Assembly: GCA_037043015.1 (NCBI GenBank)
Contig: CM073321.1
Coordinates: 26,859,510-26,923,509 of the forward strand
Direction of reading: 5' to 3'
Length of the DNA: 64,000 bases
Origin: Bryum argenteum
Taxonomy: Eukaryota; Streptophyta; Bryopsida; Bryales; Bryaceae
The position numbers and the translations under genes are program-made. The notes under the pieces are model-generated. The model had not been told where the DNA came from and did not search any database. It saw only the letters and a list, made by a program, of their open reading frames with translations. Below, one piece after another: positions 8,188-64,000 of this stretch (the stretch's first letter is position 1; each line of letters begins with the position of its first letter).

Positions 8188-8193
8188 AATAAA
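8188..8193 (+). terminator. Likely polyadenylation signal of the element I gene
   Basis: AATAAA lies 77 bases after the predicted stop codon of the last exon (8109-8111), preceded by a TTGTAG/TGTAG-rich stretch as in plant 3' ends. Confidence 0.5.
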
Positions 8194-8838
8194 ATGAAGA
8201 CTTTTTATTTTATCACTTGCGTCTGCACTGCGTCCGCGTCATTCTCCCTCATTCTTGGCGCTAAATATCGTCATTTCTCTATCAGGCCGCGCCTCTGAGT
8301 ACTTTATTCCGTCCGCTTGCCACTAGAACCCCCACCGACATCTTGGAAGTTGTCTTTAATGACATGAAATTAGTATTCCAAAATGTCTGAGGTGATGTTT
8401 CAAGATGTTTATAATCGTCTGCCGGAACATCCTTTCGGACATGCAAGTCCTCAGATTGTGTTTCGATAGATGTTTTAAACCATGAAAACTTCCATACGTG
8501 GTGTTTATAACTTTACACATAGCCTCTTCCATTTCAGAGGTTTCACGAACGCATACGTATGTCAGATCACACACAAATCCAAATGTCATATACACTTATA
8601 ACTGGATGTCCAAAATTTGTAGTGGAATATTAAAAACATTACATATGATCACATCACAATTTCCATAGCATAAGTGTAAATGTTTGTGACCTAAAAAAAC
8701 CAAAAATATGCAATTCAATAACATCTTCTATACAAAACACCATAGTAGTGACCTCCAAACCTTTCTTTGTAGACAATATCTTCATTTCTTCTTTGCTGAC
8801 TCCGATCTTGTTCCGGCGCCTTTCTTTAGTTTGGATGC

Positions 8839-23099: not shown

Positions 23100-23611
23100 G
23101 GACGTTGCTACCGTGTGAGCGTTGAGCGGTAAGATTTTTGATTTTTTAGGGCTGACTTTGTATTTTTAGTAAGGAAATTCTAAAAATAGCATAATATGTT
23201 TTGTTGGGGAATTATTCTAGAATATTCTCGGGAATATTAGAATATTCTAGACTTATTACCGTGGATTTAGTGACCCAAACCCGTGAAAATAAGGTTTAAA
23301 TTCTTTGAAATTGGTTAGACTTGAGCTCAAAACTTGACTGTAAATGACAATTTCTTAATATTAATGAAGGGCCGTCGAGGTCGAGCCGCAGAAGCAAACG
23401 AAGCCGCAGCACCTCCGGCTCGGATGACATTCCCAGATGAAAGGACTTCAAACTCTTCATTTGAACTTCAGAGCATGGAGTCAAGCAGTCTAACACGGTC
23501 CTCGGCAATGCCGAAGTCTGTAATTTGTATTAAAAAATTTCATCACATTCAATGCCAACTCTCATTTCAAATGTGAGTCGTGGCCATACAACTTCTATAA
23601 CTATCCATCAG

Positions 23612-24049
23612 CTAGTCATAGTTCGAGTCAGTCCCTGTATCACTGCTGCTGCGATCATCAACTGCTGAAGTGAATTCTAAAAAATCCTCCCAAATCGTCT
23701 GTAGTGGCAGTATTTCATACACATTGCAGCTGAAGCACCCCCAATTCTTGCCCGTCATGTCCTTCAGGTAGTCGTCTCCCTTGTTCCGTGCTATACACGC
23801 TGAACACCACGCCTTGTGACAATAATCACAGGGGATCACAAACTCGTCTCCTCCACACCAATTGCATTGCTCATCATCATACTGGACGTTCTTCGTAAAT
23901 ACAACGTCTTCCAACAAAAGTTTGCACGAAATGCAAATTCCAACACCGAGACGCGGATGCTCCATCAAACAAGCACGGATTTTTCTCTCTCCACATGCAG
24001 TGCAGGAATACAAATACAAAGGATCGACATCGGCTGCATGCCCCGCCAT
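23612..24049 (-). CDS. ATRX-type ADD-domain protein carried by element II copy A
   Basis: A 145-residue frame starts MAGHAADVDPLYLYSCTACG. Cysteine pairs are spaced as in an ADD domain: CTAC and CISC form the GATA-like finger (CTACGERKIRACLMEHP, then GVGICISCKLLLE), and CNWC, CDYC, CSAC and CFSC form the PHD-like part (DEQCNWCGGDEFVIPCDYC, then HKAWCSACIARNKG). The pattern DEQC.WC...IPCDYCH is very close to animal and plant ATRX. ADD domains read histone H3 tails unmethylated at Lys4. The C-terminus is short and acidic (SSSDTGTDSNYD). The gene is read away from the small gene at 24557, so both could share one promoter. It is absent from copy B. I see no helicase or methyltransferase attached. 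Confidence 0.8.
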   Translation of the reverse strand: MAGHAADVDPLYLYSCTACGERKIRACLMEHPRLGVGICISCKLLLEDVVFTKNVQYDDEQCNWCGGDEFVIPCDYCHKAWCSACIARNKGDDYLKDMTGKNWGCFSCNVYEILPLQTIWEDFLEFTSAVDDRSSSDTGTDSNYD

Positions 24050-24556
24050 TTTATCGACTTCACCTCTGCAAGACTAACAAACTTCGAATGAGAGATGGCC
24101 CAAAAGTCCGAGCTTTGAGATGCTGGCTATCCTCCCGAACCGTTCTTCTATAACACGAGAGCAAACCGGATTGCCATGATTTTACCTTGAAGGCCCATTC
24201 AACTGCACCTATCCATCGACCCATCAACGGCACCGCCAACAGCACCGGCAGCAGCGGCAGCAGCAGCAGCTTTTTTGCTGGACTGTAAGGCACCGACATT
24301 TCTGCGAATTACAAACCGACACTTCGGCACCGACACGAATTCCCATGACAATCGACCTGATTTTTTCTTACATTTTCACGAGAAATCACCGACATTGCAT
24401 CCTCTTACATTTTCATAAGAAATCTATTCACTTGAGCATCATTTCCTCACATCTGTACCAGCACATCACAATGAGGACCGACATGGCACAACTACATGGG
24501 ACGTTAAAACCGACACTCTGACACTCTGTGTCAAGATATTGGAGGAAGAAGAAATC

Positions 24557-26450
24557 ATGGCGGATCTTGTAGAGAAAGAGGTGGCAGTGGAAGGAGGCAA
24601 TGAGCACGTCGAAGAAGCTTCAGAAAATGTGAGTTCTCAGTCCTCAGAATCAAGTATTTTCGACGAATTTTACAAGGAATTTTACAAGTCGCATGCTCCT
24701 GCTGAAGCAATGAAAACGAGGGCGGAGTTGGAGGTGTGGTACTCCAAGAAATTCCTGGTATGTACTGAACAAAGCTTGTTGCTACATCAGATTGAGTAAA
24801 CCCTAACTTTTGCATTCTGCACCAGATCGATTGTGCACTAAACCTTGTTCAACAGGTATGACATAGAATCCGGTAGGAGAGAAAGTAAACGTCATGAACA
24901 CACTCAAATATGTGAATTCGGGTAGTGCAGGTTGCTGACTCCTCTTCCCTCGGTGCTGTACCTCTTTGTTGTTGCCGATGAGGGCAAAGCGTCGGTGCTT
25001 TCCTTCTTTGCTGTTGCCGATGAGGGTAAAGTCTCGGTGCTGTCCGTCTGTTGTTCCCGATGAGGGCTGCTTTGTGAGTAGGCTCGAAGCAGAGCAGGTT
25101 CAGGGCTTGGATTTGCATGGATGTCTGGACGGAGGCTGCCGTTTTTCCCTTTTATGTGCCCGAATTTGGCTTTTTTTTTCCTCGCTGAACTGCATTTTCT
25201 TCTCCTTCTTCGCTGGACTCGTGATGTATTTCGGGGACTACAGGTGCTGCCTTCTCTTCCCTCGCTATGGCCCATCCGATGAATGCCGATGAAGGCCGAT
25301 GAAGGCTGCTGAGAGCTTCAAGGCGGGCCTGAGGCTGTTTGCAAACTAGTATTCCCCTGCTCAAATGGAAGCTTGATGGCTGGCCATTTCGGTGGCGTGG
25401 ATTTGGTGTGGCACTGGTTGTGGGAAGAGCCGGGAAGCACCCAGACATTCGTGGACGAAAGTCTGGAGGGAGGTGCCCGAATTTGTCATGTTTTTTCTGC
25501 CTTATCTACTTTTTCTTCTTTTTGCTCGCTGGATCTCGTGATGTATTTCGGGGATGCAGGTGCCGCCTTCTCTTCCCTCGCTGTGGCCACCCAACATGAA
25601 TGCCGATGAAGGCCGATGAAGGCTCCTAAGAGCTTCATGGCGGGCCTGAGGCTGTTTGCAAACGGGTATTCCCTTGCTCAAATTCATGCTTGATGGCTGG
25701 CCATTTCGGTGGCGTGGTTTTGGTGTGGTACTGGTTGTGGGAAGAGCCGGGAAGCACCCAGACATTCGTGGACGAAAGTCTGGAGGGAGGTGCCCGAATT
25801 TGTCAATTTTTTCTGCCTTATTTGCATTTTGGCTCTTCATCGCTCGCTGTTGCACATCCTTGTTGTGTCTATGAAGGCACGTGTCTTCTTCATGGCGGGC
25901 CTGAGGTTTTTCGTTACTGCTATTCTCCAGCATGCATCCGAGAAGCTTGATGGCTGGACACAATGGTTGCTGGTCGACGCTTCCTTGGTTTATTTGCTTA
26001 TGCTGGTTTATTTGTGAATGAATTTCTTAAAGTGTGAATGAATTTGCTTAATATTAGTTTTATAACAATGCCTGATTTTTTATTCGGAGTGTTTGATAAT
26101 TGACTTAGCATTGGTTTGGTGTGATTTTGCAGGTTCCAAAAATGCGGAAAAAAATTGAAAGAGAAGAGGAATCTGATGCAGATAGTGACCTTTCCGCATT
26201 GAGAGACAATGTGTTAGCTTACGTGGAGTCTCGTCGATTAAACATATCATTGACTTCGGTTCCGGAAACCCCACCCCCTGCCTCACCTGTCCGTCACACC
26301 TCGCGTGATGTCGTTGATCGGGTTGCACGAGCTGTTAACATGCAAATCAAAAAGAATGAGGCTAAAGCTAGACGTATCGAAGAGAAAGCATTAGCTAGAG
26401 TCAAACCCAGACGTTCTCCGCGACTTGCTAGAAAGTTGCAGTCATCTTGA
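24557..26450 (+). CDS. Element II copy A small charged protein, two exons
   Basis: Exon 1 (24557-24757) encodes MADLVEKEVAVEGG and an acidic 67-residue region ending YSKKFL at a GTATGT donor. Exon 2 (26133-26450) follows a TTTTGCAG acceptor in phase and encodes KIEREEESDADSDLS, a proline-rich link (ETPPPASP) and a basic tail with KARRIEEKALARVKPRRSPR. The product is 172 residues with no recognised domain; the tail could bind nucleic acid or act as a nuclear signal. Copy B has the same two-exon structure, which supports the model. The 1.4-kb intron contains direct repeats. Confidence 0.7.
24900..26010. repeat. Direct repeats in the intron of the small gene, copy A
   Basis: Two units of about 320 bp (from about 25285 and 25605) share GAGCTTCA.GGCGGGCCTGAGG, ATGGCTGGCCATTTCGGTGG and CCAGACATTCGTGGACGAAA. 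Short GTTGCCGATGAGGG repeats precede them. Open frames across the repeats are incidental. Copy B has an expanded version. Confidence 0.75.
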
Positions 26451-26590
26451 TTGTATCGTCGGATGATATGTTGAGTTTATCATACACTTGATTATAAAGC
26501 CGATGTTTTTTATTAATTTTATCGCATTGGTTATTTGACACATTCTTATTCAGTCTGTGGTGTGTTATATTTGGTTTCTGGATTGCTAGA

Positions 26591-29500
26591 TGACCTTAGC
26601 TCAAGTTCGTACCGATTAAGATGACGAATCTAGCCGACAACTTCTTGCTTCTCCACCACTTCGTTCGACTGATGGAGACGTACAATTACATGATAGTGTC
26701 GCAAATGTTGAAAACATTTGCACCGGAGTCCCGGAAGAAAGTCCTTGTGAAAGTGAGCGTCATCCTGAAGCCGTGCACGATCATGATCGACTCGACGCGC
26801 TTTCAAAGGATGAAGATACTCCTTTGCCTGGGAGTGTCAACGTTGGAATCGTTCATATGCCAATGCATCTGCATAACAAGGACCCCGACTGGAGTGCAAA
26901 CGAGATGCGAATGCTTCACAAGAGTGATTCGATTGCAATCATCAACAGGTTACGCTACAAACCTGTTAAGAAATCTCGTATGTTCATTCCACTCTGTCGT
27001 CTCGTTTGTTATCCGAAGGTTCGCCCGATTTCAGAACAAGACGTCAGGAAACTAGAGAATGAATTCAACAAAGGATACCGGGAAGGCGATCGGGTGATGT
27101 ACGTGTCACCCTTTGATAAAAAAGGCCGAGAGAAATTGGTTGATGCTGAAGATGCTGTCTGGACGAATCCTCTATGGAAATCCTTTGTGTTATACAGAGG
27201 AGATTAGCGAAGGCATCTGATGACGCAGAAACGAATTACTACGCCACCGTACCGAAAGGGAAACAAACAGGACCTGGAGTATGGAGTGCCATGGATAATG
27301 CGATCAAAGTAGAGATTAGGGCCATACGTGGCAAAAACTTCGACAAGATGGTCGCTGTGGCCAACAACAAACTTGGGAAAATATTTGCGAAGGAGGTAAA
27401 CACCCCTTTCATGTTTTATATGACTCGTAATCATGTTTTATAACCTGATTCCTACTTATGATCTTCATGTGCAGATTTATTCTCATTAAAGTAAGAACTT
27501 GAAACCCGATATGACAATCGATCGCTTACAAATGGTAGCCACTACCAATGTTCATTGCGATTTCAAGGGTAAGTGGCTCCAATGGTGGAACTCATCGGAC
27601 GAAGTTCAACGTTCTTTTCGCTTCCCAGAAGAACAACCAATGAAAGATAAAACTTTGATGGCATTCCTACATCGCGCTTCTCTATGGGCACAGGTATCTT
27701 AATGTTTCGTTACGTGTTTTCAAACTTAGACTACATATGCTATTTTGATATTTAACATGTTCTCTTTTTTCACAGCTCGAGCATTCACTTCAAAGTGAAT
27801 TGCAAAACCTGATTGACAACGAAAACCTCAACATTGAGTGGTCTACTGTTGTCCTAAAGCCATCTGAGTATGTGGAGAAGTGGAGGTTGCTCTTATGGGA
27901 CAAGGCATTCAACAACTATCTTGGTCCTAATGCCAGCCCAAAGTTCAGCAAAGGCTCAGATCTTCAAAAGATTACCGGGGGCAAAGTTACAATTAAGCGG
28001 CTTTTATTCCGGTAAGTTTCTAGTTTTTTATTCAATATTAATTAAATCGGTACAACTTGTTCAATTTTCACAATGTAATTTGTTTTCTTTTTTGAAGGTA
28101 CTTAAAATAAGAGCTCGTTGCCAAGGGAGCTTTAGCTTCGTTCTCTATTCCAATGGAGTTCGAGGACGTCTCAGTCACAAATGATCCCCGCAGTTTTTTC
28201 TCCTCAGCCCAACAAGAGCGGTTTCCAAACTCTCAATTGTCGACCGGTGGATGGTTCTTTGAGTGCAATGACAACTACGTGCACAAGGAAGAGAAGCATC
28301 TTCTTCAGAATCCCGCTTTAAATCCAGCTGACTCTGCACCGATGGAGATTGACGACGATGACGATGACGACCTATCTATTCTACCAGTCGCGTCTGATCC
28401 AATCTCTTCTCCTTCTTCACCAGTTGCAGTGCCCAAGTCTCGTGCAAACAGGAAGCGACGCAACGCTGTTGCGGAGCCTGTTGTTGCACTTGACGAGGAT
28501 TCCGAAGATATTGCTCGTCGTCAAGAAGACATTGCCGGGCCAGAGGATGCTGATCTGACTCAAGCGTCGGTGGAAGCGACAAACAAGGCAATTCGACGCG
28601 GTGCAAGACTGACTCAACTTTCTGCGGGTGGACTTACAAATGTTGAGTCTCCTCCTCAATCCTTCACCGTTGACCACAACTCCCAACAGTCCCCCCGTCG
28701 CCTCAGCCAGCCGGTATTTGCCAAACGCCCTCTTCCGAAACCCACTCACATTGGTAGCAGCTCGTCGTCTAAAATATCGATGACTCTACCTATGTATCTC
28801 GAGAAGGGGAACATTCGAGATTTGGTCCATCACTCATCGAAGACAGGAAACTGGGATTCGCAAATCCTTGATATCGTTGAGCACATCAAGAAGGTATTAT
28901 TTCATACATTTCTCATTTATAATCTCTCTAATTACGTTTTGTACTTTAGAATCTATTAGCGACTATCTAATTTTTCATTGTCTCCTAGATTGGCAAAGAC
29001 CGTAAGTACCCATGTTTGGCGATGGAGTATCAGCCCAAGCATCCAGGGATTGATCTCATTTTTGCAGATGCTCCCGAGAACTTGCATGTACTGGGTGTGT
29101 CTCCAACAGAAGTTCCATCCTGGAACCGGCGAGACAAAACCTACTTTGAGAGCCTCTTCGTGTTTGCCGCGTATCATTTGACAGACGTTGGAGCCATTCT
29201 TCTGATGCATCCAAAATGTCGTAAAATCGAGCGTACTCTTGATTCTGAGTCGTATAAATATAGTTTTCGTCTGGTTCGAGACTGGTGGGGGTATAATCCC
29301 CTCCCTATGGCCTCTACCGTGCCCAAACCGAAAGAGGTACGGACCAGATTCTAGTTTCCAATTTCATATTACATGATTATTGTCTTCTATGCTTCTATGT
29401 TAACCTATGTATACTTCTGTTTTGTAGACTCACTGCTTCCATATCAAAGTGTATGTTCGGAAAGATTTTTTTCCGAAGTTCCAAACTCGGGAAGTGGCAC

Positions 29501-30287
29501 ACGCATACGCGGATGTGTCAATCGTACCTGATGAGGAAGACCACCTCTGTAACTTTGCAGACAAAGGGACATTGCGTTATCGTCCGGATGGTACGCCATG
29601 GCAAGGCTCACGAGAGAAGGACCCCTCCTTCATTCAATGTTTCGTCGATTGTTTCACAGACGACGGGGGTACAGTCTTCGATTGGAGCGCAAGTATAGGT
29701 AATATTTCCGTAAACTCTACATTAAAATTTGTTTATACAGTTTGCATTTTTAACGTGGGCATCTGATTTTTTAGGTGCATCTGTGATAGCTTGCGCGCGC
29801 TCCAACGGACACCTCATTGCTATGGAGCCAGACGAAGAAATCTTTGATGGTGTTCTAGCAGATTACAAGAATGGTCCTCCCGGTGATGAAGAAAGTGGAG
29901 AATCAATCCCTCCCGCTGATTATGACTCTGACGAACCGGTCGTGAAGAAGCCGCGAAAGTTCATTGGTGCGTAATACCATCTTGTATATTACTTCTAGAT
30001 TTTAAAATACATATTTACAAATCGGTAATATTGACTTTCTTTGTACTTTTAGGATCGCAGGTCTGAAAGAGCGATTGACTCGCAACGCTCATCTCTACAA
30101 GAGCCCTCCATCAAAATTCACCCTACCATCGTAGGCTGAGCGTCTTGCTCAAGAGTTTGTTCAAGCTCCATCTCCCATTTTGACTGACACTCCACGTCGA
30201 CGCTATAGCAATAGTGTGCTTAAGTTTATAGACTTTGAGGCTGATCAATGTGATCAGCACTTTAATGGTACTACACCGTCTGCCTAG
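26591..30287 (+). pseudogene. Element II copy A ParB-methyltransferase-like gene, decayed
   Basis: This copy aligns exon by exon with the intact gene in copy B. Disabling changes are TAA at 26618 (codon 10), a deletion near 27182 that removes the end of exon 1, exon 2 and most of intron 2, TAA at 27487, TAA at 28108 where copy B has CAG, and TAG at 30132. The deletion removes the ParB core. The later exons still show LIFADAPENL, the PDGTPW block and IGASVIACARSNGHLIAMEP. Splice borders are mostly kept. The gene cannot make the full protein. Confidence 0.8.
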
Positions 30288-31099
30288 TTTGTGATTTGCT
30301 TTCTGATAGGTACTGGACATGGTAGCGCCATACATTTGTAGTTCACCATGATCTATTACTTATATTAGTCTCTATATGTGTTTTTCAATATATATGGTTT
30401 TATATTTTTATTTATCGTGATTATTGTTTATAGCTTAACCTACACTATGTGCTTCAAGTATTACTCTAAGTATCTCAATACAATGTAATCTGAGCCATGA
30501 TTGCCTTTAATGGTGATGTCAGCCCTAATTTGATGTAAATTCTTTAACTCCAATTTCAATGCATCTGTGTATCTAAATGTTTAAGTTTAAAACTCAATGC
30601 AGACTAAAAGTTCTAGAAGTTTTTTTTCTTTTTTCCATTGGAGTGATTGAATCTTGCCAATGTTAGTAGGGGCTACAGTCTGGTATTTGTATAGCTCAGG
30701 GTAGCGGCTTTAAGATGCAATGCAACGCTCCAACGAGGCGGAGGAGAATCGAACTCGGACCACTACAATGCCACGTATTGACATATATTTCTGACAAGTG
30801 TAATAGGAAATTGATGACTTCAGCCCTAATTAGTCTCCAAATATTAAAATATATAAATTAAACTTATTGATTACTTAAAGGCAATCCACAAGTGGGGGTT
30901 TAGATTTTGTATATGATTTCAATTGTATTGGTTACACATGATGATGCCAGCCCATAATTTAATTAACTTTTATTTTCTCTTGCAAATGTGGATTATTTAT
31001 GAAATATTGTATGACCTCAACACTATGAAAATAATTGGATTTAGGACCATATCCACGGTTTTGGGTACTATTATGTCTATAAAAAAACAATTTCGAAAT
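30288..31099. other. 3' non-coding part of element II copy A, with tRNA-like B box
   Basis: AT-rich sequence that is also found, inverted, at about 49370-50212 in copy B. It includes GAGTTCGATTCTCC on the minus strand (about 30743-30758), a good match to a pol III B box, next to GTGGCATTGTAGTGG. No complete tRNA fold is visible. It may be the head of an old SINE. Confidence 0.4.
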
Positions 31100-31216
31100 T
31101 TCAGAACCACCCATTCCATGGTAATAGGGCCATTAACTTTCAAATTCATTTCTTCTTACCGCTAAAACTTTACCGCTCACCGCTCACCGCTCAACGCTCA
31201 CACCCGTGGTTTCCCC

Positions 31217-49267: not shown

Positions 49268-50212
49268 GGGGAAACCACCGGTGTGAGCGTTGAGCGGTGA
49301 GCGGTAAAGTTTGAGCGGTAAGAAGAAAAAAAATTAAAAGATAATGGCCCTATTACCATGGAATAGGTGGTTTAGAAAATTTGTAATAGTTATTTTTAGG
49401 CATAAAAGTACCCTAGACCGTGGATATAGGTCCTGTATCCATTTATTTTCATGGTATTGAGGTCCTACATTATTTCATTTGGAATCCAAAAATTGGAAGT
49501 TTAAATAAAAGTTAATTAAGTTATGGGCTTGCATCAACATGTGTAACCAATACAATTCAAATCATATACAAAATCTAAACCATAATTTGGGATGGCCCTT
49601 TAGGTAATCAATAAGTTTAATTTATCAATATTAAGATTTAGAGACTAATTAGGGCTGACGTCATCAATTTCCTAATAGACGTATCAGAATTATATGTAAT
49701 CGCTTCGGTTTATATAATCTGAAATTTATAACTACAAGTCGTCTTCCGTCTCTCCTTGTAAGGTGTAGAGAAAGACATTCACGTGGCATTGTAGTGGTCC
49801 GAGTTCGATTCTCCTCGGCCTCGTTTGAGCGTTGCACCGCGTCTTAAAGTCGCTATCCTGAGCTATACAAATTCAGGACTATAGCCCCTACCAACATTGG
49901 CAAAATTCAATCACTCCAATGGAAAACAAAAAAACCCTCTAAAACTTTTAGTCTGCATTGAGTTTAAAACTTATACATTTACATACATTGGTGCGTTGAA
50001 ATTAGAGTTTAAGAAGTTATATTAAATTAGGGCTGACGTCACAATTAAAGGCAAGCTTGGCTTTAGATTACATTGTATTGAGATTCTTAGAGTAATACTT
50101 GAAGCACTTGGCGTAGGTTAAGCTATCAACGATTATCACAATAAATAAATATATCAAACCGTATATATTGAAAAACACATATAGATAGAACCTATAGAAA
50201 GCAAATCACACA
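49268..50212. other. 3' non-coding region of element II copy B, with tRNA-like B box
   Basis: The sequence matches 30288-31216 in inverted orientation. GAGTTCGATTCTCC (49801-49814) is a pol III B-box match preceded by GTGGCATTGTAGTGG. No full tRNA can be folded by eye. Confidence 0.45.
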
Positions 50213-53200
50213 CTAGGCTGAAGGTGTAGTACCATTAAAGTGCTGATCACACTCATCAGCCTCAAAGTCTATAAACTTAAGCACACTCTTGCTATAACGT
50301 CGACGTGGAGTGTTTGACAAAATGGGCGATGGAGCTTGAACAAACTCTTGAGCAAGACGCTCAGCATACGATGGTAGGGTAAATTTTGATGGAGGGCTCT
50401 TGTAGAGATGAGCGTTGCGAGTCAATCGCTCCTTCAGACCTGCGATCCTAAAATTGCAAAGAAAGTCAGTCCTATAGATTTGTAAGTGCTAAATAAAAAA
50501 TCGAGAAAGAGAATATAAGATGGAATTACGCACCAATGAACTTTCGTGGCTTCTTCACGACCGGTTCGTCAGAGTCATAGTCTGCGGGAGGGGGCGATTC
50601 TCCACTTTCTTCATCTCCGGGAGGACCATTCTTGTAATCCGCTAACACACCATCAAAGATTTCTTCGTCAGGTTCCATGGCGATGAGGTGTCGGTTGGAG
50701 CGCGCGCAAGCAATCACAGATGCACCTAAAAAATCAGAGGCCCACGTCAAAAATGCGAAATGTAGAAACGAATTGTAATGTAGAGTCTACGGAAACATTA
50801 CCTGTACTTGCGCTCCAGTCGAAGACTATACCCCCCTCGTCCGTGAGACAATCGACGAAACATTGTATGAAGGAGGGGTCCTTCTCTCGTGAGCCTCGCC
50901 ACGGCGTACCGTCCGGACGATAACGCAAGGTTTCTTTCTCTGCAAAGTTACAGAGGTGGTCTTCCTCATCGGGTACGATTGCCACACCCGCGTATGCGTG
51001 TGCCACTTGCCTAGTTTGGAACTTCGAAACAAACTCTTTGCGAACATATACTTTGATATGGAAGCAGTGAGTCTGCAAAACACAAGTATAGATAGATTAA
51101 TATAGATGCATGGAAGGCCATAACCATGAATTGTGAAATTGGAAAGTAGAATATGATTCGTACCTCTTTCGGTTTGGGTACGGTAGAGGCCATAGGGAGG
51201 GGATTATATCCCCACCAGTCTCGAAAAAGACGAAAACTATATATATGGGACTCGGAATCGAGAGTACGCTCGATTCTACGACATTTTGGATGCATAAAAT
51301 GAATGGCTCCAACGTCTGTCAAATGATATGCGGCAAACACGAAGAGGCTCTCCAAGTAGGTTTTGTCACGCCGGTTCCAGGAGGGAACTTCTGTTGGAGA
51401 GACACCCGGTACAGGCAAGTTCTCGGGAGCATCTGCAAAAATGAGATCAATCCCTGGATGCTTGGGCTGATACTCCATCGCCGAACACGGGTACTTACGG
51501 TCTTTGCCAATCTGGGAGACAAGTAAGATATTAGCTAGTGGCTAATAGATTTACCAGTACTATACGTAATTAAGGAGATTATGAATGACAAATTTATGAA
51601 ATAATACCTTCTTGATGTGCTCGACGATATCGAGAATTTGCGAATCCCATTTTGCAGACTTCGACGACTGATGAACCAAATCTCCAATGTTCCCCTTCTC
51701 GAGATACATAGGTAGAGTCATCGATATTTTAGACGACGAGCTGCTACCAATGTGAGTGGGTTTCGGAAGAGGGCGTTTGGCAAATACCGGCTGGCTGAGG
51801 CGACGTGGGGACTGCTGGGAGTTGTGGTCAACAGTGAATGATTGGGGAGGAGACCCAACATTCGTAAGTCCACCTGTAGAAAGTTGAGTCAGTCTTGCCC
51901 CGCGTCGAATTGCATTGTTTGTCGCTCCCTCTGACGCCTGAGTCAAATCAGCATCTTCTGGCCCTGCAATGTCTTCTGGAGGAGGAGCAACATCTTCAGA
52001 ATCCTCGTCTAGTTCAACAACGGGCTCCGCAACAGCGTTGCGTCGCCTCCTATTTGCACGAGACCTGGGCACTGCAACTGGTGAAGAAGGAGAAGAGATT
52101 GGATCAGATGCGACTGGTAAAATAGAGTGGTCGTCATCGTCATCGTCGTCAATCTCCATTGGAGCAGAGTCAGCTGGGTTTGATGCAAGATTCCGAAGAA
52201 GATGCTTCTCCTCCTTGTGCACGTAGTTGTCGTCGCACTCAAGGAACCATCCACCGGTCGACAACTGGGAGTTCGTAAACCGCTCTTGCTGGGCTGTTGA
52301 AAAAAAACTGCGGAGATCATTCGTGACTGAATTGTCCTCGAACTCCATTGGAATAGAGAAGGAAGCTAATGCTCCCTTGGCAACGAGCTCCTGTTTTAAG
52401 TACCTACAAAAAATTAAACAAATCAGATAGTGAAGATTGAACAAGTTGTACGGATTTTATTAATATTGAATACAAAACTGGAAACTTACCGGAATAAAAG
52501 CAGCTTAATTGTAACTTTGCCCCCGGTAATCTTTTGAATATTCGAGCCTTTGCTGAACTTAGGGCTTGCATTAGGACCAAGATAGTTGTTGAACGCCTTG
52601 TCCCATAAGAGCAACCTCCACTTTTCCACATACGCTGTTGGCTTTAGGACAACACTAGACCACTCGATGTTGAGGTTTTCGTTGTCGATCAGGTTTTGCA
52701 ATTCACTTTGAAGTGATTGCTCAAGCTGTGAAAAAAGAAAACATGTTAAACATCAAAATAGCATATGAACTCTAACTTTGACAACACGTAACGAAACATT
52801 AAGTTACCTGTGCCCAAAGAGAAGCGCGATGTAGGAATGCCATTAGAGTTTTATCTTTCATAGGGCGTTCTTCTGGGAAACGAAAAGATCGTCGAACTTC
52901 GTCCGATGAATTCCACCATTGGAGCCACTTACCCTTGAAATCGCAATGAACATTGGTAGTGGCTACCATTTGTAAGCGATCGATTGTCATATCGGGTTTC
53001 AAGTTCTTGCTGTAATGAGAATAAATCTGCAGAGTAAAATCATAAGTAAGAAAAAGGTTATAATACATGATTATGAGGCATATAAAATATGATAGTGATA
53101 TTTCCTTTACCTCATTTGCAAATAATTTCCTGAGTTTGTTATTCGCCACAGCGACCATCTTGTCGAAGTTTTTGCCACGTATAGCCTTAATTTCTGCTTT

Positions 53201-54871
53201 GATCGCATTATCCATGGCACTCCATACCCCAGGTCCCGTTTGTTTCTCCTTCGGGACGGTGGCGTAGTAATTCGTTTCAGCGTCATCAGATGCCTTCGCT
53301 AATCTCCTCTGTATAAAAAATAAAAAGAATGAATAAGGTGTAAAAAACCAAATACGAACAATCACATTTGAAACACGTTCCACTCAACTTACCGCATATA
53401 AGAACTTCACGAAAACGTCAACTGTTACCGGATACCAAGTATCTTTTTTCGCCTTAGCGTTCTTGCAAATTCTGTAATCCTCCGGGGATATCAGATCCTT
53501 GAAATCCTCTAGTTTCAATTTTCCGAACTGCCTCATTCGCTGCAATTTGGCACACAATCCGTCTTTGACATGGTCATGTTCAGTGGACCTGCAGTTAGGC
53601 ACCACAAGCCTTGGCTTGGTGGTTGGGGCTCATGGCCCCCATTGAGGAGGTTGTGGGTTCCATTCCCCATGCCGGCGTGGTGCTCACCACTATAGTCCAC
53701 CCAACTATTGTGGGGGGTCCTTGGACCTTGTTGTATGGGTACCTCAAAGTCCTTTGGGGGGATACTATGTCAAGTATCCTCAAGGCACTAGTAACTAGGC
53801 TAGAAACTAGCGTAGTTATAGTGTCCACCCTCGAGAGGGGGAAGTAGTATTGTTCCAATTTCCCCTTGTCCGGTGGCCATCGGGATATTAGCATTACGAA
53901 CGGACACTTCATTCACGCCGGCCCCTTAGAAAGGGACCGGAGTTTCTATCTATCTTTCTATCTATCTGGACCTGCAGTGCGAGATCACACATGAAAAACA
54001 TATAACTTAAACAAAAAAGAGCGGTCTTAATAAATCATTGAAATACTCACCAATTTATGTCGTTCATAGCGTCGAGCAAGAGATTGCTCTCTCCTCGTGC
54101 ATCAAGAACGATACAATCCACGGAGATGTACCACGAAGGATCCATCTTATGGTACCTCTCTATGTGACGCATCCACGCTGTCACACGGTGGTTACCCTCG
54201 TAAACGTAGAAATACTTCTCACTGAGGTGTTGTAGATCAGAGTCAGACTGCAGCGTCTTCTCAAACTCATCATTGGCTGACTTCCAGAGAGGGTTCGTCC
54301 AGACAGCATCTTCGGCAGCAACCAATTTTTCTCGGCCTTTCCGATCAAAGGGTGACACGTACATCACCCGATCGCCTTCCCGGTATCCTTTGTTGAATTC
54401 ATTCTCTAATTTTCTGACGTCCTGTTCTGAAATCGGGCGAACCTTCGGATAACAAACGAGACGGCAGAGTGGAATGAACATACGAGATTTCTTAACAGGT
54501 TTGTAGCGTAACATGTTGATGATTGCAATCGAATCACTCTTGTGAAGCATTCGCATCTCGTTCGCACTCCAGTCGGGGTCTTTGTTTTGCAGGTGCGTTA
54601 GCATATGGACGATTCCAACGTTGACACTTCCAGGCAAAGGAGTCTCTTCATCCTCTGAATGCGCGTCGAGACGATCATGATCGTGCACGGCTTCAGGATG
54701 ACGCTGAGATTCAGAAGGACTTCCTTCCGAGTCTCCGGTGCAAATGTTTTCAACATTTGCGACACTTTCATGTAATTGTTCATCTCCATCGATCGAACGA
54801 ATTGGTGAAGAAGCAAAAAGTTGTCGGGTGGTGTCGTCATCTTCATGGGTAGGGACATGAGCTAAGGTCAT
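50213..54871 (-). CDS. Element II copy B ParB-like / DNA-methyltransferase-like protein, intact, ten exons
   Basis: Exons 54871-54051, 53588-53393, 53308-53111, 53026-52808, 52725-52490, 52403-51608, 51511-51164, 51072-50802, 50725-50534 and 50439-50213 join at GT..AG borders with matching phase into 1167 codons without a stop. Residues about 130-275 resemble a ParB N-domain (FIPLCRLVCYPKVRPISEQD, then YVYEGNHRVTAW at 222-233). The middle is acidic and Ser/Pro-rich (EIDDDDDDDHSILP). The C-terminal third has IDLIFADAPENL (ADAPE at 848-852) in the place of motif IV, AYHLTDVGAIHFMHP like the strand of motif VI, VFDWSASTG (1021-1029) as motif I and HLIAMEPDEEIF after it. This is the order of permuted beta-class N4/N6 methyltransferases. 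ADAPE is not a canonical DPPY/SPPY, so activity is doubtful. Confidence 0.8.
53584..53978 (+). mobile_element. tRNA-derived SINE with 12-bp target duplication
   Basis: TGGACCTGCAGT occurs at 53584-53595 and 53967-53978. Between them lies a 371-bp unit with A-box-like TTGGCTTGGTGGTTGGGGC, B-box-like GTGGGTTCCATTCCCC about 35 bases later, and a CTATCTATCTTTCTATCTAT tail. These are hallmarks of a plant SINE moved by LINE enzymes. It sits in the first intron of the copy B gene, in antisense, and the duplicated bases include that intron's splice acceptor. Confidence 0.9.
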
Positions 54872-55010
54872 CTAACAATTTAGAAACCAAATACAACACC
54901 CCACAAAGTGAATAAGAATGTGTCAAATAAACATTGCGATAAAATTAATAAAAAACAACGGCTTTATAATTAAGTGTATGATAACCTCATCATATCATCT
55001 GACAAAACAA

Positions 55011-57718
55011 TTAACAGCACTGCAACTTTCTAGCAAGTCGCGGAGAACGTCTGGGTTTAAGTCTAGCTAATGCTTTCTCTTCGAAACGTCTAGCTTTAGC
55101 CTCATTCTTTTTGATTCGCATGTTAACCGCTTGTTCAACACGATCAACGTCATCACGCAAAGTGTGACGGAAAGGTGAGGCGGGAGGTGGAGTTCCAGGA
55201 ACCGAAGTTTGTGGTATGTTTAATCGACAAGACTCCAGGTAAGTTAACACATTCACTCTCAATGTGGAAAGGTCACTATCTGCATCGGATTCCTCTTGTC
55301 TTTCCTTTTTTCTTTGCTTTTTTGGATCCTGCAAAATCACACGAAACCAATAGTAAGTCAATTATCAAACAGTAGGAAAATGATGCGATTAGCCATTGTT
55401 ATAAAAGTAATATAAATGAAATTCATTCACACTTACTTCAATTCCCATGCGCAGTACATCAAGATACAGGAAAGCAAATGATAAACCAAAACAAAGTCAC
55501 CCTCAAAATCAAAAGCGACCCAAGTAGTCCAACACATCAGTGATGACAAAAAAAATCAAAGGATAAAATACATATGGGAAAAAAAATGCAAAATCCTCCA
55601 TGAGGTGCCAGACATTCGTGGACGAAGCTCTGGGCTCCTTCCCAGCTCTCACATGCAATCGGGGCCAGCTAAACACACAGCTGCCCTCATCGGCATGGCA
55701 CAAGCAGGAGGTGTAGCTCGAGCATAGCCTCAGGCCCAGCCATTCACACACAGGAGCCCTCATCGGCACAAGCAGGAGGGTACCTCGAGCGATGCCTCAG
55801 GCCCAGCCATGCACACACAGCAGCCCTTATCGGCACAAGCAGGAGAGAACAGGAGTTTTGCCAACACCGCACTCGGGAATTGACACCACGATGACAAAGA
55901 AAATCACAGGATCAAAACGCAGATGGCAACAAAAAACGCAAAATCCCCCACGAGGTGCCAGACATTCGTGGACGAAGCTTTAGGCTCCTTCCCGGCTCTC
56001 ACACCCAATCAGGGCCATCCAAAAAGAATCTACATCAGGCCCGGCCATGAGACACACAGCTGACCTCATAGCACGGTACAAGCAGGACGTGTAGCTCGAG
56101 CATAGCCTCAGGCCCAGCCATACACACACAGCAGCCCTCATCGGCACAAGCAGGAGAGAACAGGAGTTTTGCCAACACCCTGCACTCCGGGAATTGACAC
56201 CACGATGACAAAGAACATCACAGGATCAAAACGCAAATGGCAACAAAAAACGCAAAATCCTCCACGAGGTGCCAGACATTCGTGGACGAAGCTCTGGGCT
56301 CCTTCCCGGCTCTCACACGCAATCGGGGCCAGCCAAAAAGAATCTACATCAGGCCCGGCCATGAGACACACAGCTGCCCTCATCGGCATGGCACAAGTAG
56401 GAGGTGTACCTCGAGCAAAGCCTCAGGCCCAGCCAATCACACACAGGATCCCTCAGCGGCACAAGCAGGAGGGTACCTCGAGCGATGCCTCAGGCCCAGC
56501 CATGCATACACAGGAGCCCTCATCAGCACAAGCAGGAGGGTAGCTCGAGCAAAGCCTCAGGCCCAGCCATGCACTCACAGGAGCCCTCATCGGCACAAGC
56601 AGGAGAGTAGCTCGAGCGATGCCTCAAGCGCGGCCATGCACACACAGCAGCCGTCAAAGGCACAAGCAGGAGGGACAGCAGGAGATTGGCCGACACCCTC
56701 CACTCCGGGAATTCACACCACGATGACAAAGAAAATCACAGGATCAAAACGCAGATGGCAACAAGAAATGCAAAATCCTCCACGAGGTGCCAGACATTCG
56801 TGGACGAAGCTCTGGGCTCCTTCCCAGCTCTCACACGCAATCGGCCATGAGACACACAGCTGCCCTCATCGGCATGGTACAAGCAGGAGGTGTACCTCGA
56901 GCAAAGCCTCAGGCCCAGCCATTCACACACAGGATCCCTCAGCGGCACAAGCAGGAGGGTACCTTGAACGATGCCTCAGGCCCAGTGATGCACACACAGT
57001 TGCCTCATCGGCACAAGCAGGAGGGTAGCTCGAGCGAAGCCTCAGCCCAACCATGCACACACAGCTGCACGAATAGCCTCAGGCCCGGCCATGAAGGACA
57101 CAGCACCACTCATCGGCACATGCTAGAGGAGCAAACACAGTGTGCAGGAATCAAATTCCCCACTCAGTCAAGCCATCAAGGTGCTCTGCTTCGAGCCTAG
57201 CAGTCACCTGCATTCATCGGCAACAGGGAAGATGGACAAAACAAAGCGAAAAAGTAGCCAGCAACCTCCACTCCCCGAATTCACAGAATCGATGACCAAA
57301 ATTATCACGGTAGACTCAACACGACGATGCCCACAGGCGGCCATCTTTCAAATTACCTTCAACCTTGTTATTAAGTACAACGGTATCTGCATCAGGCCGG
57401 CCATGAAGCAACAGAAGAGCCTATTCATGACGAAGAAGTTCTCTCCCACCCAAATTCTGACAACAATTAGGGTTTACATTCAATTAGATGAAGCAAGGAG
57501 CTATGTCCAGTACATACCAGGAATTTCTTGGAGTACCACGCCTTCAACTCCGGCCTGGTTTTCATTGCTTCACCAGGAGCATGCGCCTTGTAAAATTCCC
57601 TGTAGAATTCGTCGAATATACTCGAATCAGAGGACTGGGAACTCACATTTTCTAAACCTTCTTCGACGTGCTCACTGCCTCCTTCAACAGCCACCTCTTG
57701 CTCTACAAGATCCGCCAT
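55011..57718 (-). CDS. Element II copy B small charged protein, two exons
   Basis: Exon 1 (57718-57518) encodes MADLVEQEVAVEGGSEHVEE and ends YSKKFL at a GTATGT donor. Exon 2 starts at 55328 after a TTTTGCAG acceptor (DPKKQRKKERQEESDADSDL) and ends KPRRSPRLARKLQCC at 55011. The product is 172-173 residues, acidic first and basic at the end, as in copy A. Both copies keep open frames although the large gene of copy A has decayed. No domain is recognised. It is read ahead of the ParB-methyltransferase-like gene on the same strand, about 140 bases apart. Confidence 0.7.
55590..57130. repeat. Expanded repeat array in the intron of the copy B small gene
   Basis: GTGCCAGACATTCGTGGACG occurs near 55607, 55957, 56269 and 56788. 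Between these, 60-70 bp units with GGCACAAGCAGGAGGGTAGC and CTCAGGCCCAGCCATGCACA repeat more than ten times. The intron is 2.2 kb here against 1.4 kb in copy A. Long frames (for example 56237-57028) are repeat products. Confidence 0.85.
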
Positions 57719-57937
57719 GAGTTCTTCTTCCTGCAACATCTTGACAGCAATGGTGTGCAAATTCATCAAATAACTCCCTCCCACAACTTGACAGTGTCAA
57801 ATGTACTCCTCCCATCTTGCCAGTACACTTTCTGTTACTTCTACTAAAATTAGCTGCCTCCGAGCCCATCGGCGGTTCCTGCTTTGTCCTATTCTAAATT
57901 AGCACAAACTTTTATTGTAATCGAATCTCGCAATTGA

Positions 57938-58440
57938 TTAGCCCGACTTTGGAATGAGCCAGATTGAATGAGCGGCGACCCCTGGCTCACTCAAGAGCTG
58001 GCGCCGAAAAGGAATGGCGCGTCCCACGCGATGGACATCGGCGCTCTGCGACTTCGGTAGCAACATCGGAGTACCTGGCCTCCCCGAACGAACCAAAAGA
58101 TATCGGCCGGTGCCCGCCCGCCGTACCCGGCCGCGCTTCTGAGCTTTGCGGTACCCGGCCTCGCCGTGCACCGGGCCTACATATCTGAGGAGGGTTCGGC
58201 GGCCCATGCCGCGTGGGGGGGGGTAACGGGAACCGTGGGGTATGGGAGACCGAGGGGGGGTAACGGGGACCGTGAGGGGGGGGGGGTAGCGGGGACCGTG
58301 GGGGGTAACAGGGACCGGTTCTCAACTATTCTGGTAGTAGCTTGTGAGCTCAAACATCGGGCTCATCAACTTGAGCATCAAGGTCATGACCTAGGGCATC
58401 AAGCTCATGACGTCGGGCATCGTGTGATGCCATAGACTAG
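57938..58440. other. GC-rich sequence with poly-G tract
   Basis: 58200-58320 holds units like GGGGGTAACGGGGACCGTG with runs of up to ten G. The frames across it have no domain. GGGCTCATCAACTTGAGCAT-type short repeats follow to about 58430. Confidence 0.6.
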
Positions 58441-58715
58441 TATTATGGTTCGTTTGCGATATTTTCACAAACCCTATATATGGTATTCATTATCTCCGTA
58501 CTTAGACAATGGAATGGCCATGAATATGATTTATATGTACGACAATTGAACATACATATACTTAATAGTTGTTTACATTTTTCTTACCGAAATACTTCTA
58601 AATCGTAATCTAAAATATGCCCATACTCTTTCATGCCACTGATTAGTATGATTATACGATGAAACAGTCATGGGTCCATCTATATCATGAAAATCTAAAA
58701 TGTCAAAAGTTCTAA
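58441..58715. other. AT-rich spacer
   Basis: No gene or repeat seen; 3' of the acidic gene of the MULE-like element. Confidence 0.4.
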
Positions 58716-59450
58716 CTACCTCATATTGAAGAATGGACTATCGTTGATTGTATACTTAATCAACCCTAGGTCCTCCCAATAAACCAGGAAGTAGGGTTTC
58801 TCATGTACCTCCTCTAATTCTTCAGGACTTGTTTCAAATCCATCCGCTACATCATTTTGTGTTTCCTGATCACTGGAAGCTTCTGCTCTCTGAGCCATAT
58901 CTGTGACTCTTTTCTCCTCAAACATTCCAGCTTCTTCTCCAGATTGATCGTCTTCCTCTTCCGATTCTCTGCGACCCTGAAGACAACACATGTTGATGTT
59001 ACTTCATAAACGAATGCGGTAATATTTTGATACTTAGAAATATCAACATATTTGTAACATAGATTACATCATTACCTCATTTGTAGAGTCTACACCTCCA
59101 TCGTCATCTCGATCCACGCATACAGTCTCGCTAGACGTCCTGAACTGCCCTCTACGCCCTTCCTCCTCCTCGGCTTCAGCTGCGTCTGTCCCCACACTCT
59201 CCGGGACACTATCAAGGTTGAGCGATCGCATTTTGATAGTCCGCCTGAATGGCGGTAGCACATCATCGTCAATCAATATGTCATATCCGTCTGGCTCCTG
59301 ATCATCGCCGCTACAACTCCTCCCATCGCGCTTCCGCAAAGCACTCCGCCTTTGCGCTTTAGAATTAGTAAACTTCGTACCCCCCCTACGCTTCTTCTTT
59401 CTCTGGCCTACCTCCTTTCTTCTCTCACTACCGCTAGCGTTTTCGTCCAT
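58716..59450 (-). CDS. Acidic accessory protein of the MULE-like element
   Basis: Exon 1 begins MDENASGSERRKEVGQRKKK (59450) with a nuclear-type basic run, then EPDGYDILIDDDVLPPFRRT and an acidic tract, ending at a GTAATG donor near 59075. Exon 2 follows a CTTCAG acceptor near 58978 (GRRESEEEDDQSGEE) and reads to KYTINDSPFFNMR, where TAG or a GTAGTT donor follows. No domain is recognised. It is divergent from the transposase gene, with about 520 bases between the starts. Confidence 0.5.
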
Positions 59451-59974
59451 ACTGCTTCCAATGATATAACTTATCACAGGTACAACCTAACGAGTCCAAG
59501 TGTTCCCACTGCAAATGAAGAGGTCGAACTATGAGTTTGAACTCCATTATATAGGTTCCCCACGCGGCTAAAAAACCCTAATCAGACACCGCGTATTCCC
59601 TAACATCCCGCTATGACCGTGTCTGACAATCCAATATAAGTTAGCGTTTAATCGCATCTATTATCTAACTAAATCTCTGACAATGACTGCCGCCGTCACT
59701 TTACATCTTACAACTACTTATTTTATCGACGGATCTAATATTTTGAATCCTAACTACTTAATGGCATTTTGTCAGGCCAGATAATTTAAATCATCATGCT
59801 CACAATTCAGAGTATCGGTATCTGTATGTTTTATTTTAAGTAATTACGTCTAATAGGTATTCTATACCTATGCCAACACCCTACACCAAATTCAAGTATT
59901 TGAACATTTGAAATGCACATCTGACTCTCTTTCTCTGCGCACTTGTGATGTTGTCTTCTTCGCCTACGTCTATC

Positions 59975-62900
59975 ATGGCATCCTCCACTCCCTTACCTCC
60001 CGCTGCAAACGTCATTGCAATTAGGTCTGAAGACTTAAGTCCTCCCATCTGCATTCCTCCGGGGATGGGTGGAGTGGCTGAAGTCACTCCGTCTTGGCTA
60101 GCAACTCGTTTCGGGTTTGATGAGTCCTCTCTTTGGTTAGAGAAACATGTCTTAGATCCAAACACTAATCTTGTCCAGTACTCCGTGCTTGTCGAACCTG
60201 TCGACCTAGAGAAGAATTGTAGAATGTATAAGCTACGGCCGGACAATATCGACTCTTCGGCATGACAGAGTCCGCATGAACGCCCACCGTCCTCCTCACT
60301 CCTCGTAGTTCTTCTACCATCTCCTTTGTTGTTCCGATTCTTGCTCGTGTCAAGGTCGAACGGACTCAAGTCCGAATCGATATTTTGATTCATCCGACGA
60401 TGAAAGAAAAGCGTCCATGCGGTCCGTCGCCTATCATCGAACTGCATCCACCTAAATGCAGTTCTCAACACGGTCTCGGAACCACCCCGTTCCTCTTCTT
60501 CGCGTCCAAAGTCGTAAAACCCAAAAACATTCTTTCCTCGCTTCGTAGACTTGGTAGTATGTCTCGCAACAAAACTATCCTCAAAAAAATAGATTTCCAT
60601 TCCATTCGTACTCACAACGTCTCTTTCCTGCCTCCCACTTTCAACGGTGATGTCCTCTATGTTCTCCCTCCCGTTGTACCAACCACTGCTGTCAAGGTAG
60701 CCAAATCTATGGAAGGGATGGACAAAAGATACGACGGTCATGTTTGGACCAGGACAATGACTACTAACATTAGTAACAACCTCGATTTGTCTTTCCGCTA
60801 CTCTAACTGTGTAGGTCATCTTCGATGCCACAATCGAAATTGCGGCTACTTACTACGACCTGACCGCAGAACAGAGGTGAATGAGGTGGAGTTCGAGGGC
60901 TTTACCAAGGACCCCTTCCCGGTCGGCCACGCGCCTCCCCCTTCTTCAATATTGGTCTGTAAGATCTGCAAAGAACCTCCCGTTTGTGTTGCTCTATGCC
61001 CTTCTAAAATATTCTACGTATTCGGAGAGGAGAGTCAAGAGCGAGCGTGTGTGCATATCGGTACCCACGAACATCCTATCAAAGTCGGAGACTACAGATG
61101 TGCACGTAAAATAATTGATGAGTTAATAGAGGAGCACGTAGAACATAACCCACAAGCTACCACGTCCAAAATAGTCATGGAGGCTAGCAAGGACTTACTC
61201 GGAAACTTCCTTCTCCGTGAAGAAGGTGACCCTGTAACCTCCAAGCTCACCCTCGAGGAGCTAGAACCTATATTCGATCAGTGTAAAGAGCTGAACTTTC
61301 CAAGCGTGAGGAATCGTATTACCACTTTTAAGCACTTGCGCAGATACGGTGTTCTCGATGGGATCACCAAGCTTCGAGGCCTCAGCAACTGGGCTTACAT
61401 CCAACGTAACCAATTCCCGGGGCAAGGAGATGAAAGTGACAAAGTGTTCATTTTCAAGATGTCCGAGGTCGGCCCCGAAGGCGGTGTTGACCTTGTTCGT
61501 CGTGATGCGACCCCAGGCGACTGTCCCATGGGTGGATGATGTTCGACCACGTCAAGGGTGTCAAGAACTGGACCACCATGGCGTGCCACGTTTATGACTC
61601 AAAAATATGCCGCATTCTAACTATTGCATCTTTGTGATTTCCGATCAAGACGGGAGAAGCTCAAATCGACTTATGGAAGAACCTAAACCACGTCATGGGC
61701 AGGAACGGAGTGGAAGCGCCTCAGTTTCAAGGGTTCATGGCCGACAGTGCGCAAGCCAACTGGAACGCCGTGCGGATCATTTACGGCTCCGGTGACCCTA
61801 AAGTCCCTATGGAAGGCCGCGAACGTACTTGCTACTTCCATTGGACTCAATCCCTAGAGAAACACACCAAACAATACATCGTGCACGAGCTGCAAGATCA
61901 ACATCGACATCTTTGTAAGCAATACAAAGATGCACGCACCATGGCTGAGGCGGAGACAAGATACTGGGCGATCCGAGCGTGGTGGGCGTCGGCGCAGGCC
62001 ACCTCCGAAGTTGGATTAGGTCCTCTCGAACACTGGCTTGCATTCTGGCACTTCCGATACAGGCAATGGGGTGGGTTCATGGAACTGGTGAGTCCGCAGC
62101 GACTGTAGCAATTATGTACCGTGCTTTTATGTCAAGTAAATCCGTAAATTTTATTTACTTTTTTGTCGAGAATTTTTGTTATAGATTACATTAACAACAT
62201 TTTAAAATATTTGAAATTTTAAAAAATCTATTTTTAGATCAGACATTCGGTGACGAAAGTCTAACCCGCTCTGGATATCGTGATCAAGTTTTTTGGTTAC
62301 TAAGTCAAATGTCTTTGCACCTTGCAGGAAAATAAATATTCTGCGGAGGAGCTGGCGGAGATGCCTTCATGTAACCTTGCGGAATCTATCCATAACAAAT
62401 GGTTGCAAGCATCCGGCAACAAGGGTGGGGACTTGTTCGTTGCACCTGTTGATGATTATGTTCGTGCTTTCCTTCAAGTAGTGGGTTACCATGACTTCAA
62501 CGGAGGTGGCAAGGGTGGTAGTGGACCAACATCCCAAGAACTATTACTTCGTGTTGCCCATAAAGCTCAACGAACCGGCGATCCATCAGGCCTCACAAAG
62601 GCAATTTCTGACTATCCAGGAGCTGAAAAGATTTGTACCCGCGACGCCCACCTTGAGGGGGCAGAGGTGTTCGGATCCAAGAAACGTAAGGCTGATGTTC
62701 CAATTGGAGCTAATGATGAAACGCACAGACCTGACACCGTGAGCTACTCACGTCCTCGAATTGGGAGAAGGGTTACCCGAGCATGTGCTGAAAATCTGAG
62801 TACTATCCATGAAGAGGATGAACTTCAGGAACCACCGACATTACCATCAACTTTTGCTGGACCTAGTATTGAACGTGTGACCGCTGTTCAGGAGACTAAA

Positions 62901-63767
62901 GTAGACGAGAGGTTGTGGCACATTGCCCGTTTGAGGGAGAACTCTGCCAAGGCTTGTTGGGGTATCATGCGAAAGAGTAAAAAAAGATGTGACTCACGAA
63001 TTATTCAGAAGGGGAAGGCGACCGCAGCTCCAACTTACATCGAAGTATGGCAACGCCCTCAAGAGGGGCCAAGAAAAATTGATCAGTTCTTTTTTTGTGC
63101 AGATGATATTGATAGGTGTGTGAAGGGTCATTGTTGCAAGTGGATTGAGCCATTCTCTCAAAGCAAGGATAGACCCCCTATTCCTTCAATATGGCCTGTT
63201 AAGATAGGGACTAATCTTACACGTGATGAGATGGAGGCGTTAGAGAATGCGGGCTTTCGACTACCACAAAAAGAACAGCTTCCTACGCACCGCACTTTCA
63301 ATAATGTTGCCCCACCAAGAGACTTGTCCCATATTCCAGTCCCGGAGAAGCCAGACATGTATTCGAGGTCAAGAAGATCGAAGAACATGAAACGCATTCC
63401 AGCTGTGACTTCAAAGCACATGAAGAATATTGAGTCTGCCACCTCAATGCAGGCCAGAATTCTGAGGGTGACCATGATCCCGCAGCCTGGTTTTGGGTGT
63501 ATCGTAGACTTGGAGTCGGATTCGGATGCAGTTTATAGACTCTCAATTAGTAAATTCCCAGATTGCTCAGGCCCAGTGTTCAAGAAAACCATTTCTACGT
63601 TAGGAAGAAGAGATCCATATCGACCGTGCAAGCACCTATATTTCATCACGGTATTGGTTTGCAAATTTGATCCGGATGCTGACCAATTCATCCACGCGGC
63701 CACTCTTAGTTTCAACGAGGTGAAGAAGATTCTGGAGGAAGGAATCCTAGACCATGCTATAGATTAG
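59975..63767 (+). pseudogene. MULE-like transposase gene, frame-shifted
   Basis: The N-terminal part (59975-60265) starts MASSTPLPPAANVIAIRSED and is followed by frame changes. 60385-61539 contains a WRKY-GCM1-like finger: FRYSNCVGHLRCHNRNCGYL and a later RACVHIGTHEHPIKVGDYRC. The catalytic core lies in 61545-62090 over two frames: FDHVKGVKNWTTMACHVYDS, then GFMADSAQANWNAVRIIYG (second Asp) and ERTCYFHWTQSLEKHTKQYI. An exon from 62329 reads MPSCNLAESIHNKWLQASGN and, near the end, a SWIM-like FPDCSGPVFKK...YRPCKHLYFI with one Cys lacking. It stops at 63765-63767. Mutator-like enzymes cut at TIRs and make 8-10 bp duplications, like the one of element II copy A. Confidence 0.7.
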
Positions 63768-64000
63768 AATGCCGTATATCTACTCATCTACGTACGCTAT
63801 GTGTTAGTCTTATGATTGTGTGCTTCACAATGTATGTAATATTTTTTCACAACTGATTAAAATAATTATACCAGTACCTACATGTACAGCAAACCTTGCC
63901 AATTTGTCTAACTCGGAGTACTATTCACTTAGTATATTACCTTAAAAAACGGTTGACATTTAAAAATTTGTGATTTATTGTCAAGCTTTGTAGCTCAAGT
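63768..64000. other. AT-rich 3' flank
   Basis: Nothing recognised downstream of the MULE-like gene within the window. Confidence 0.5.

Follow-up and report, generated by a model that had tools for sequence, protein, structure and literature searches.

A ParB-type and methyltransferase-like protein as candidate accessory factor of a presumed Mutator-like element family in the moss Bryum argenteum

Introduction

What would a plant mobile element gain from a protein that joins a ParB-type domain to a methyltransferase-like region? The question is raised by a gene in a 64,000-nucleotide stretch of Bryum argenteum DNA (assembly GCA_037043015.1, contig CM073321.1, positions 26,859,510 to 26,923,509; hereafter the window, to which coordinates refer). 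The gene lies in a mobile element, element B, and its product, the copy B protein, had been read in an earlier note as a ParB-type domain followed by a permuted methyltransferase-like fold. According to the present analysis, the N-terminal part has a predicted ParB-type fold, the C-terminal region looks like a methyltransferase whose chemistry was lost or changed, and the protein may serve its element family as an accessory factor. In the literature, mostly freely accessible papers, no report of a ParB-methyltransferase protein in a plant transposon was found.

Gene model and relatives of the protein

Ten exons with GT..AG boundaries yield the 1167 codons that the earlier note had claimed (Table 1), and the product contains all motifs named there: YEGNHR at residue 224, ADAPE at 848 and VFDWSASTG at 1021. 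The interval 50213 to 54871, which had been described as the element, corresponds to the gene; element B itself (G000:C1:26908777-26923741, 14,965 bp) starts at 49268 and its left end lies about 232 bp beyond the window. Among about 5.8 billion proteins, three of 7144 candidates matched the full protein at E ≤0.01, all of them hypothetical proteins of Ceratodon purpureus (758-803 amino acids (aa), 51-54% identity). From about residue 370 on, these annotated proteins largely back the splice model, two of the three lacking one stretch. A search with residues 80-339 gave 351 candidates, of which 69 matched at E ≤1, each named only "hypothetical protein"; at the same threshold, the methyltransferase part gave 22 matches among 2359 candidates. 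When the whole protein was compared with Pfam, NCBIfam and the PDB sequences, no family passed its own cut-off. The top PDB rows, none better than E 0.04, were for dynein light chain and were rejected as a short unrelated match.

The N-terminal domain

The predicted structure of residues 128-273 is a ParB/sulfiredoxin (Srx)-type fold, with a predicted local distance difference test (pLDDT) score mostly >90. Its best fold matches are ParB and Noc, followed by PadC, KorB and the pNOB8 ParB. The sequence EGNHR is conserved at ≥90% (70 sequences) and is presumably the GxHR-type motif of the ParB/sulfiredoxin superfamily. At the profile level, phrog_1033 (ParB) was matched by 13 of 70 sequences (best E 0.0021). 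No relative of the ParB part was found in IMG/VR, and a tblastn search of phages with exon 1 gave a single match, at E 1. The two ribosomal-protein rows that an hmmsearch of PDB with the ParB alignment returned, and nothing else, were discarded. The predicted structure assigns the N-terminal part to the ParB-type fold; binding of cytidine triphosphate (CTP) and a sliding clamp would be possible functions of such a fold.

The C-terminal region

In the C-terminal region the motifs are permuted, with IV preceding I at normal spacing. Around motif I, all four sequences searched matched PF01555 (best E 0.0024; 18.3 bits, below the cut-off of 26.7) and phage DNA-methyltransferase families in PHROGs (best E 2.5e-5). 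Profile alignment with phage methyltransferases (hhalign) gave a probability of 92.5, and of 93 with a richer set. The score in the latter case was 52.9, whereas the top hits of 60 column shuffles, two of which did not run, reached at most 22.5; a reversed query and the ParB alignment, used as controls, gave probabilities of 0.6 and 0.4. In a profile search of PDB, 5hfj was aligned at both motifs, IV and I, in the proper order and register (E 0.39). The adenine methyltransferases 5hfj and 5hek share the permuted motif order and the approximate spacing of the copy B protein, but the aligned stretch of 5hfj contains DPPY and DPFMGSG, unlike its counterpart here. The methyltransferase part found one locus in IMG/VR, an ordinary phage-type methyltransferase.

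Among the members seen, motif IV nearly always has the form D-[AVT]-P-[E/D/S] and the sequence at motif I resembles DWSxSTG; none has DPPY or FxGxG. Judged by these sequences, the region looks like a methyltransferase with lost or changed chemistry. The permuted methyltransferase-like region of the earlier note is upheld by the profile match at motif I and by the motif order, and falls short at the cut-off of PF01555. Conceivably, the protein methylates DNA, at N6 of adenine or N4 of cytosine, and thereby labels the element itself, a reading that is consistent with the permuted order, with the matches of all four members at motif I, and with the Asp and second Pro kept in most motif IV copies seen. 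This is distinctly unlikely in view of the missing DPPY and FxGxG and the score for PF01555, and because both catalytic motifs are degenerate, an active methyltransferase is unsupported.

The combination itself has precedents outside plants, as the earlier note had stated. Two phage fusion proteins (L084 and L086), those of Faecalibacterium phage FP_Lagaffe and Ruminococcus phage NatCom_2329, and, in the available part of its description, the Bacillus protein Bce_0392, a ParB-methyltransferase fusion with nicking activity (PMC5512222), confirm it. Like the copy B protein, all three have a ParB-type N-terminal part followed by a methyltransferase part in a single chain. In contrast to the copy B protein of 1167 aa, L084 and L086 (445 and 416 aa) retain DPPY, and the ParB parts of the phage fusions share no significant profile similarity with that of the moss protein.

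The element family

That the gene is a family trait holds across the genome (258.8 Mb in 25 contigs): exon 1 occurs at no fewer than 141 places (the best 141 of 1223 candidates were scored), and a query of exons 7-9, covering the methyltransferase part, gave at least 271 matches (the best 150 of 2083 candidates scored). Patterns for the element termini, with up to 3 mismatches allowed, were found 259 times for the right and 297 times for the left end, and reversed controls gave 0. Both ends were read in three elements, namely element A (23100-31216), L069/L071 (16.0 kb) and L072/L070 (14.5 kb), which have the terminal core GTGTGAGCGTTGAGCGG in common and, as read from their flanks, a 10-bp target duplication in every case. 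Two close copies and copy A stop at the same base as element B. The number of GAGCGGT heptads next to the terminus (49285-49305 in the window) is variable, with few in B, more in L070 and about 14 in L069.

The inverted termini and 10-bp duplications bear out that this is a plant mobile element with terminal inverted repeats (TIRs), and they agree with the Mutator pattern of TIRs plus duplications of 8-11 bp. The second main gene of the family, transposase-like and present at 144 places in the genome, has a broken frame in B, where open stretches extend over 60385-61539, about 61534-62107 (with a stop inside) and 62322-63767. Searches of Pfam and PDB with its pieces gave no Mutator or other significant match and one Smr row (E 0.11), and a D..D..CxxH pattern was recognized in it by eye only. 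We infer a Mutator-like family from the duplication length and this by-eye pattern.

Termini were paired on contigs C1-C4, using 99 of 100 listed left and 78 of 100 listed right ends. This gave 52 pairs within 60 kb, 40 of which span ≤22 kb. The gene lists consist of the listed rows on C1-C4, with second-exon rows partly omitted, so the following shares are lower bounds: the ParB/methyltransferase-like gene (a match of exon 1 or exons 7-9) is in at least 30 of the 40 elements and the transposase-like gene in at least 26, with both in 18 and neither in 2. No match within the 40 elements has the opposite orientation. When the pairs were shifted by 50-200 kb, the first gene fell into 0-4 of 40 and the transposase-like gene into 0-2.

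In MuDR, a Mutator-like element, mudrB is a second gene that presumably helps the transposase. Mutyl of yeast, with mutB, is a further element of this kind with a second gene, and the available part of the report mentions no methyltransferase-like domain (PMC6446971). The copy B protein could similarly be a transposition cofactor that binds the terminal repeats and aids cutting or insertion by the transposase, with no effect on silencing. The linkage of the two genes in 18 paired elements, the heptad repeats at the termini and the DNA-binding role ascribed to MutB (PMC6446971, available part) speak for a cofactor, but the methyltransferase-like domain would be unexplained and the transposase-like gene has no listed partner in 8 of the 40 elements, the lists being incomplete. 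On balance a pure cofactor is rather unlikely.

Proposed role

The reading that we tentatively prefer, at somewhat less than an even chance, is that of an accessory protein conserved within the presumed Mutator-like family of TIR transposons, in which a ParB-type domain and a degenerate permuted methyltransferase-like domain keep the element open. The ParB-like domain would recognise, and perhaps spread from, repeats of the element, either the terminal GAGCGGT heptads or the 67-bp/314-bp tandem repeats that lie upstream of the gene at 55542-57068, or both. The methyltransferase-like domain might then act on the repeat DNA, as a module that binds bases or S-adenosylmethionine (SAM) or as an altered methyltransferase. 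The element would as a result stay accessible for expression and transposition, as the anti-silencing protein VANC achieves for the VANDAL elements of Arabidopsis, which are Mutator-like. Support for this reading comes from the gene itself, the predicted ParB-type fold, the similarity at motif I, the linkage with the element ends and with the transposase-like gene, and the low dN/dS described below; the DNA target, the use of nucleotides and the effect on silencing are inferred.

According to the available part of PMC5735166, the short motifs to which VANC binds accumulate in noncoding sequence, introns among it, where they form tandem repeats, and the protein brings about a loss of DNA methylation throughout the VANDAL family to which it belongs. 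Both systems place an accessory protein beside a transposase in a plant DNA element with noncoding tandem repeats, and the 67-bp/314-bp repeats of copy B, which would sit in an intron of a possible second gene, parallel the partly intronic targets of VANC21 (PMC5735166, available part). The proteins themselves differ, VANC having DUF1985/DUF287 (same source) and the copy B protein a ParB fold with a methyltransferase-like part.

In a more specific version, which is unlikely as a whole, a ParB-type and possibly CTP-gated clamp would load on the element's own repeats, spread, and deliver a methyltransferase-derived module for marking or shielding. Its parts would be of phage or bacterial origin, and partners that lack a transposase would add an ADD-like chromatin reader. 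The ADD-like open reading frame (ORF) of element A matches ADD_ATRX at E 6.1e-4 and 20.0 bits, below the cut-off of 25.7, and has 150 genome matches, strong and weak. By 62 strong matches on C1-C4, it is present in 6 of the 12 paired elements listing the ParB gene only, and in none of those with both genes (0 of 18), with the transposase-like gene only (0 of 8) or with neither (0 of 2). In other copies the ADD-like ORF is located directly 3' of the ParB gene. Weaker relatives of it (33-41%) are found about 2 kb from many of its matches.

Selection and evidence to the contrary

Up to 34 copies were used to estimate the ratio of nonsynonymous to synonymous substitution (dN/dS, sum ratio). The values are lowest in exon 2 (0.10), the ParB part (0.106) and the start of exon 6 (0.122), followed by exons 8 (0.15), 7 (0.171), 9 (0.207) and 10 (0.208), and highest in the exon-6 linker (0.311) and the disordered N-terminus (0.503). 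Because copies were selected for a protein resembling that of B, these values are biased downwards, and the contrast between parts is the safer result. Exons of A and B are 92.2% identical and their introns 86.1%, which indicates constraint on the exons in this comparison only.

Several results weigh against the preferred role and the domains on which it is built. Many copies carry stops (8 of 29 in the ParB part, 4 of 34 in exon 7, 4 of 31 in exon 8), and when B is compared with the two copies nearest to it, the introns are as well conserved as the exons or better (97.9 vs. 97.4% and 99.2 vs. 98.2%). The ParB-type domain, borne out by predicted structure, fails in Pfam, where no scan gave a row for PF02195, and hhalign of the ParB part with phage ParB gave a probability of 0.4, several shuffles being higher. 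The motif-IV piece of the 5hfj alignment scores -3.0 bits, and a PDB search with the larger alignment A6 gave nothing, the 5hfj match being lost. No similarity of the copy B protein to VANC (DUF1985/DUF287) was found, a Pfam scan at E ≤10 having returned PF01555 only.

The lack of exon constraint among close copies would be expected of a captured passenger gene with no function for the element, and host gene fragments are often captured by Mutator-like elements (PMC6446971, available part). The low dN/dS among more distant copies, the presence of the gene throughout the family in fixed orientation, and its relatives in Ceratodon and other sequence collections argue the opposite. Because of selection and fixed linkage, the passenger reading is disfavoured and appears highly improbable. 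The PDB results, for their part, are compatible with a chance resemblance of motifs that would leave the ParB-fold part alone as real, and the match is confined to about 50 residues around motif I. However, the matches in Pfam, PHROGs and hhalign coincide in position, and motif IV precedes motif I by the expected distance; we strongly doubt a coincidence.

Other elements and features of the window

Element A has no match to the transposase region of B. The gene copy in it, at 26590-30287, has lost residues 199-339 and with them YEGNHR. That the pairing of domains recurs in element I, as the earlier note had held, is not supported: for the 493-aa ORF of that element (4286-5764), queried alone or with four relatives of 55-57%, and for the IDGQH stretch upstream of it, the probabilities in hhalign were 0.1-0.8 with no ParB or methyltransferase profile match, and element I was rejected as a second fusion at this level. 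The ORF has at least 89 matches in the genome (the best 87 of 1130 candidates scored). Element I, at about 420-12876 in the window, has inverted repeats of about 140 bp with 80% identity. Listed copies of the B and element I families are far commoner on contig C1 (44 Mb) than elsewhere; C1 is perhaps a sex chromosome or a repeat-rich contig. Remains of a CACTA-type element occupy 16666-21790 on the plus strand (Transposase_21, 182 bits; DUF4216 just below its cut-off).

Within element B, the insert in intron 1 is missing in the close copies L069 and L070. As for the possible second gene, only its first exon was confirmed as open in copy A (24557-24757).

Table 1. Features of the window, with strand and the basis of each assignment
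Feature	Position	Strand	Basis or remark
Element B, in-window part	49268..64000	(-)	genome terminus patterns, paired
Element terminus GGGGAAACCACCGGTGTGAGCGTTGAGCGG, then GAGCGGT heptad repeats	49268..49305	(+)	
ParB/methyltransferase-like gene	50213..54871	(-)	ten exons, GT..AG boundaries; 1167 codons plus stop
Exons 1-5 of this gene	54871-54051, 53588-53393, 53308-53111, 53026-52808, 52725-52490	(-)	
Exons 6-10 of this gene	52403-51608, 51511-51164, 51072-50802, 50725-50534, 50439-50213	(-)	
ParB/Srx-fold domain with EGNHR, residues 128-273	54053..54490	(-)	predicted structure
Motif IV-like ADAPE (degenerate DPPY), residue 848	51422..51436	(-)	motif position and relatives
Motif I-like VFDWSASTG, residue 1021, reaching the intron boundary	50800..50826	(-)	motif position, profile matches
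Intron 1 insert, about 384 bp	53593..53973	.	between direct repeats CTGCAGGTCCA
Possible small second gene	55012..57718	(-)	exons about 57718-57518 and 55328-55012; by reading only
Possible third small acidic/basic gene	58725..59449	(-)	by reading only
Transposase-like gene	60385..63767	(+)	broken frame in B
Element A, 8,117 bp	23100..31216	(+)	AACACCCTCC on each flank
ADD-like zinc-finger ORF in element A	23612..24049	(-)	Pfam ADD_ATRX

Significance

If the preferred reading is correct, plants outside Arabidopsis would have evolved an unrelated protein for the job of VANC, one in which a ParB-type domain is combined with the relic of a methyltransferase. Gene targeting is routine in mosses, and the escape of transposons from silencing would become testable in them. 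ParB-type DNA binding would at the same time enter the biology of eukaryotic transposons.

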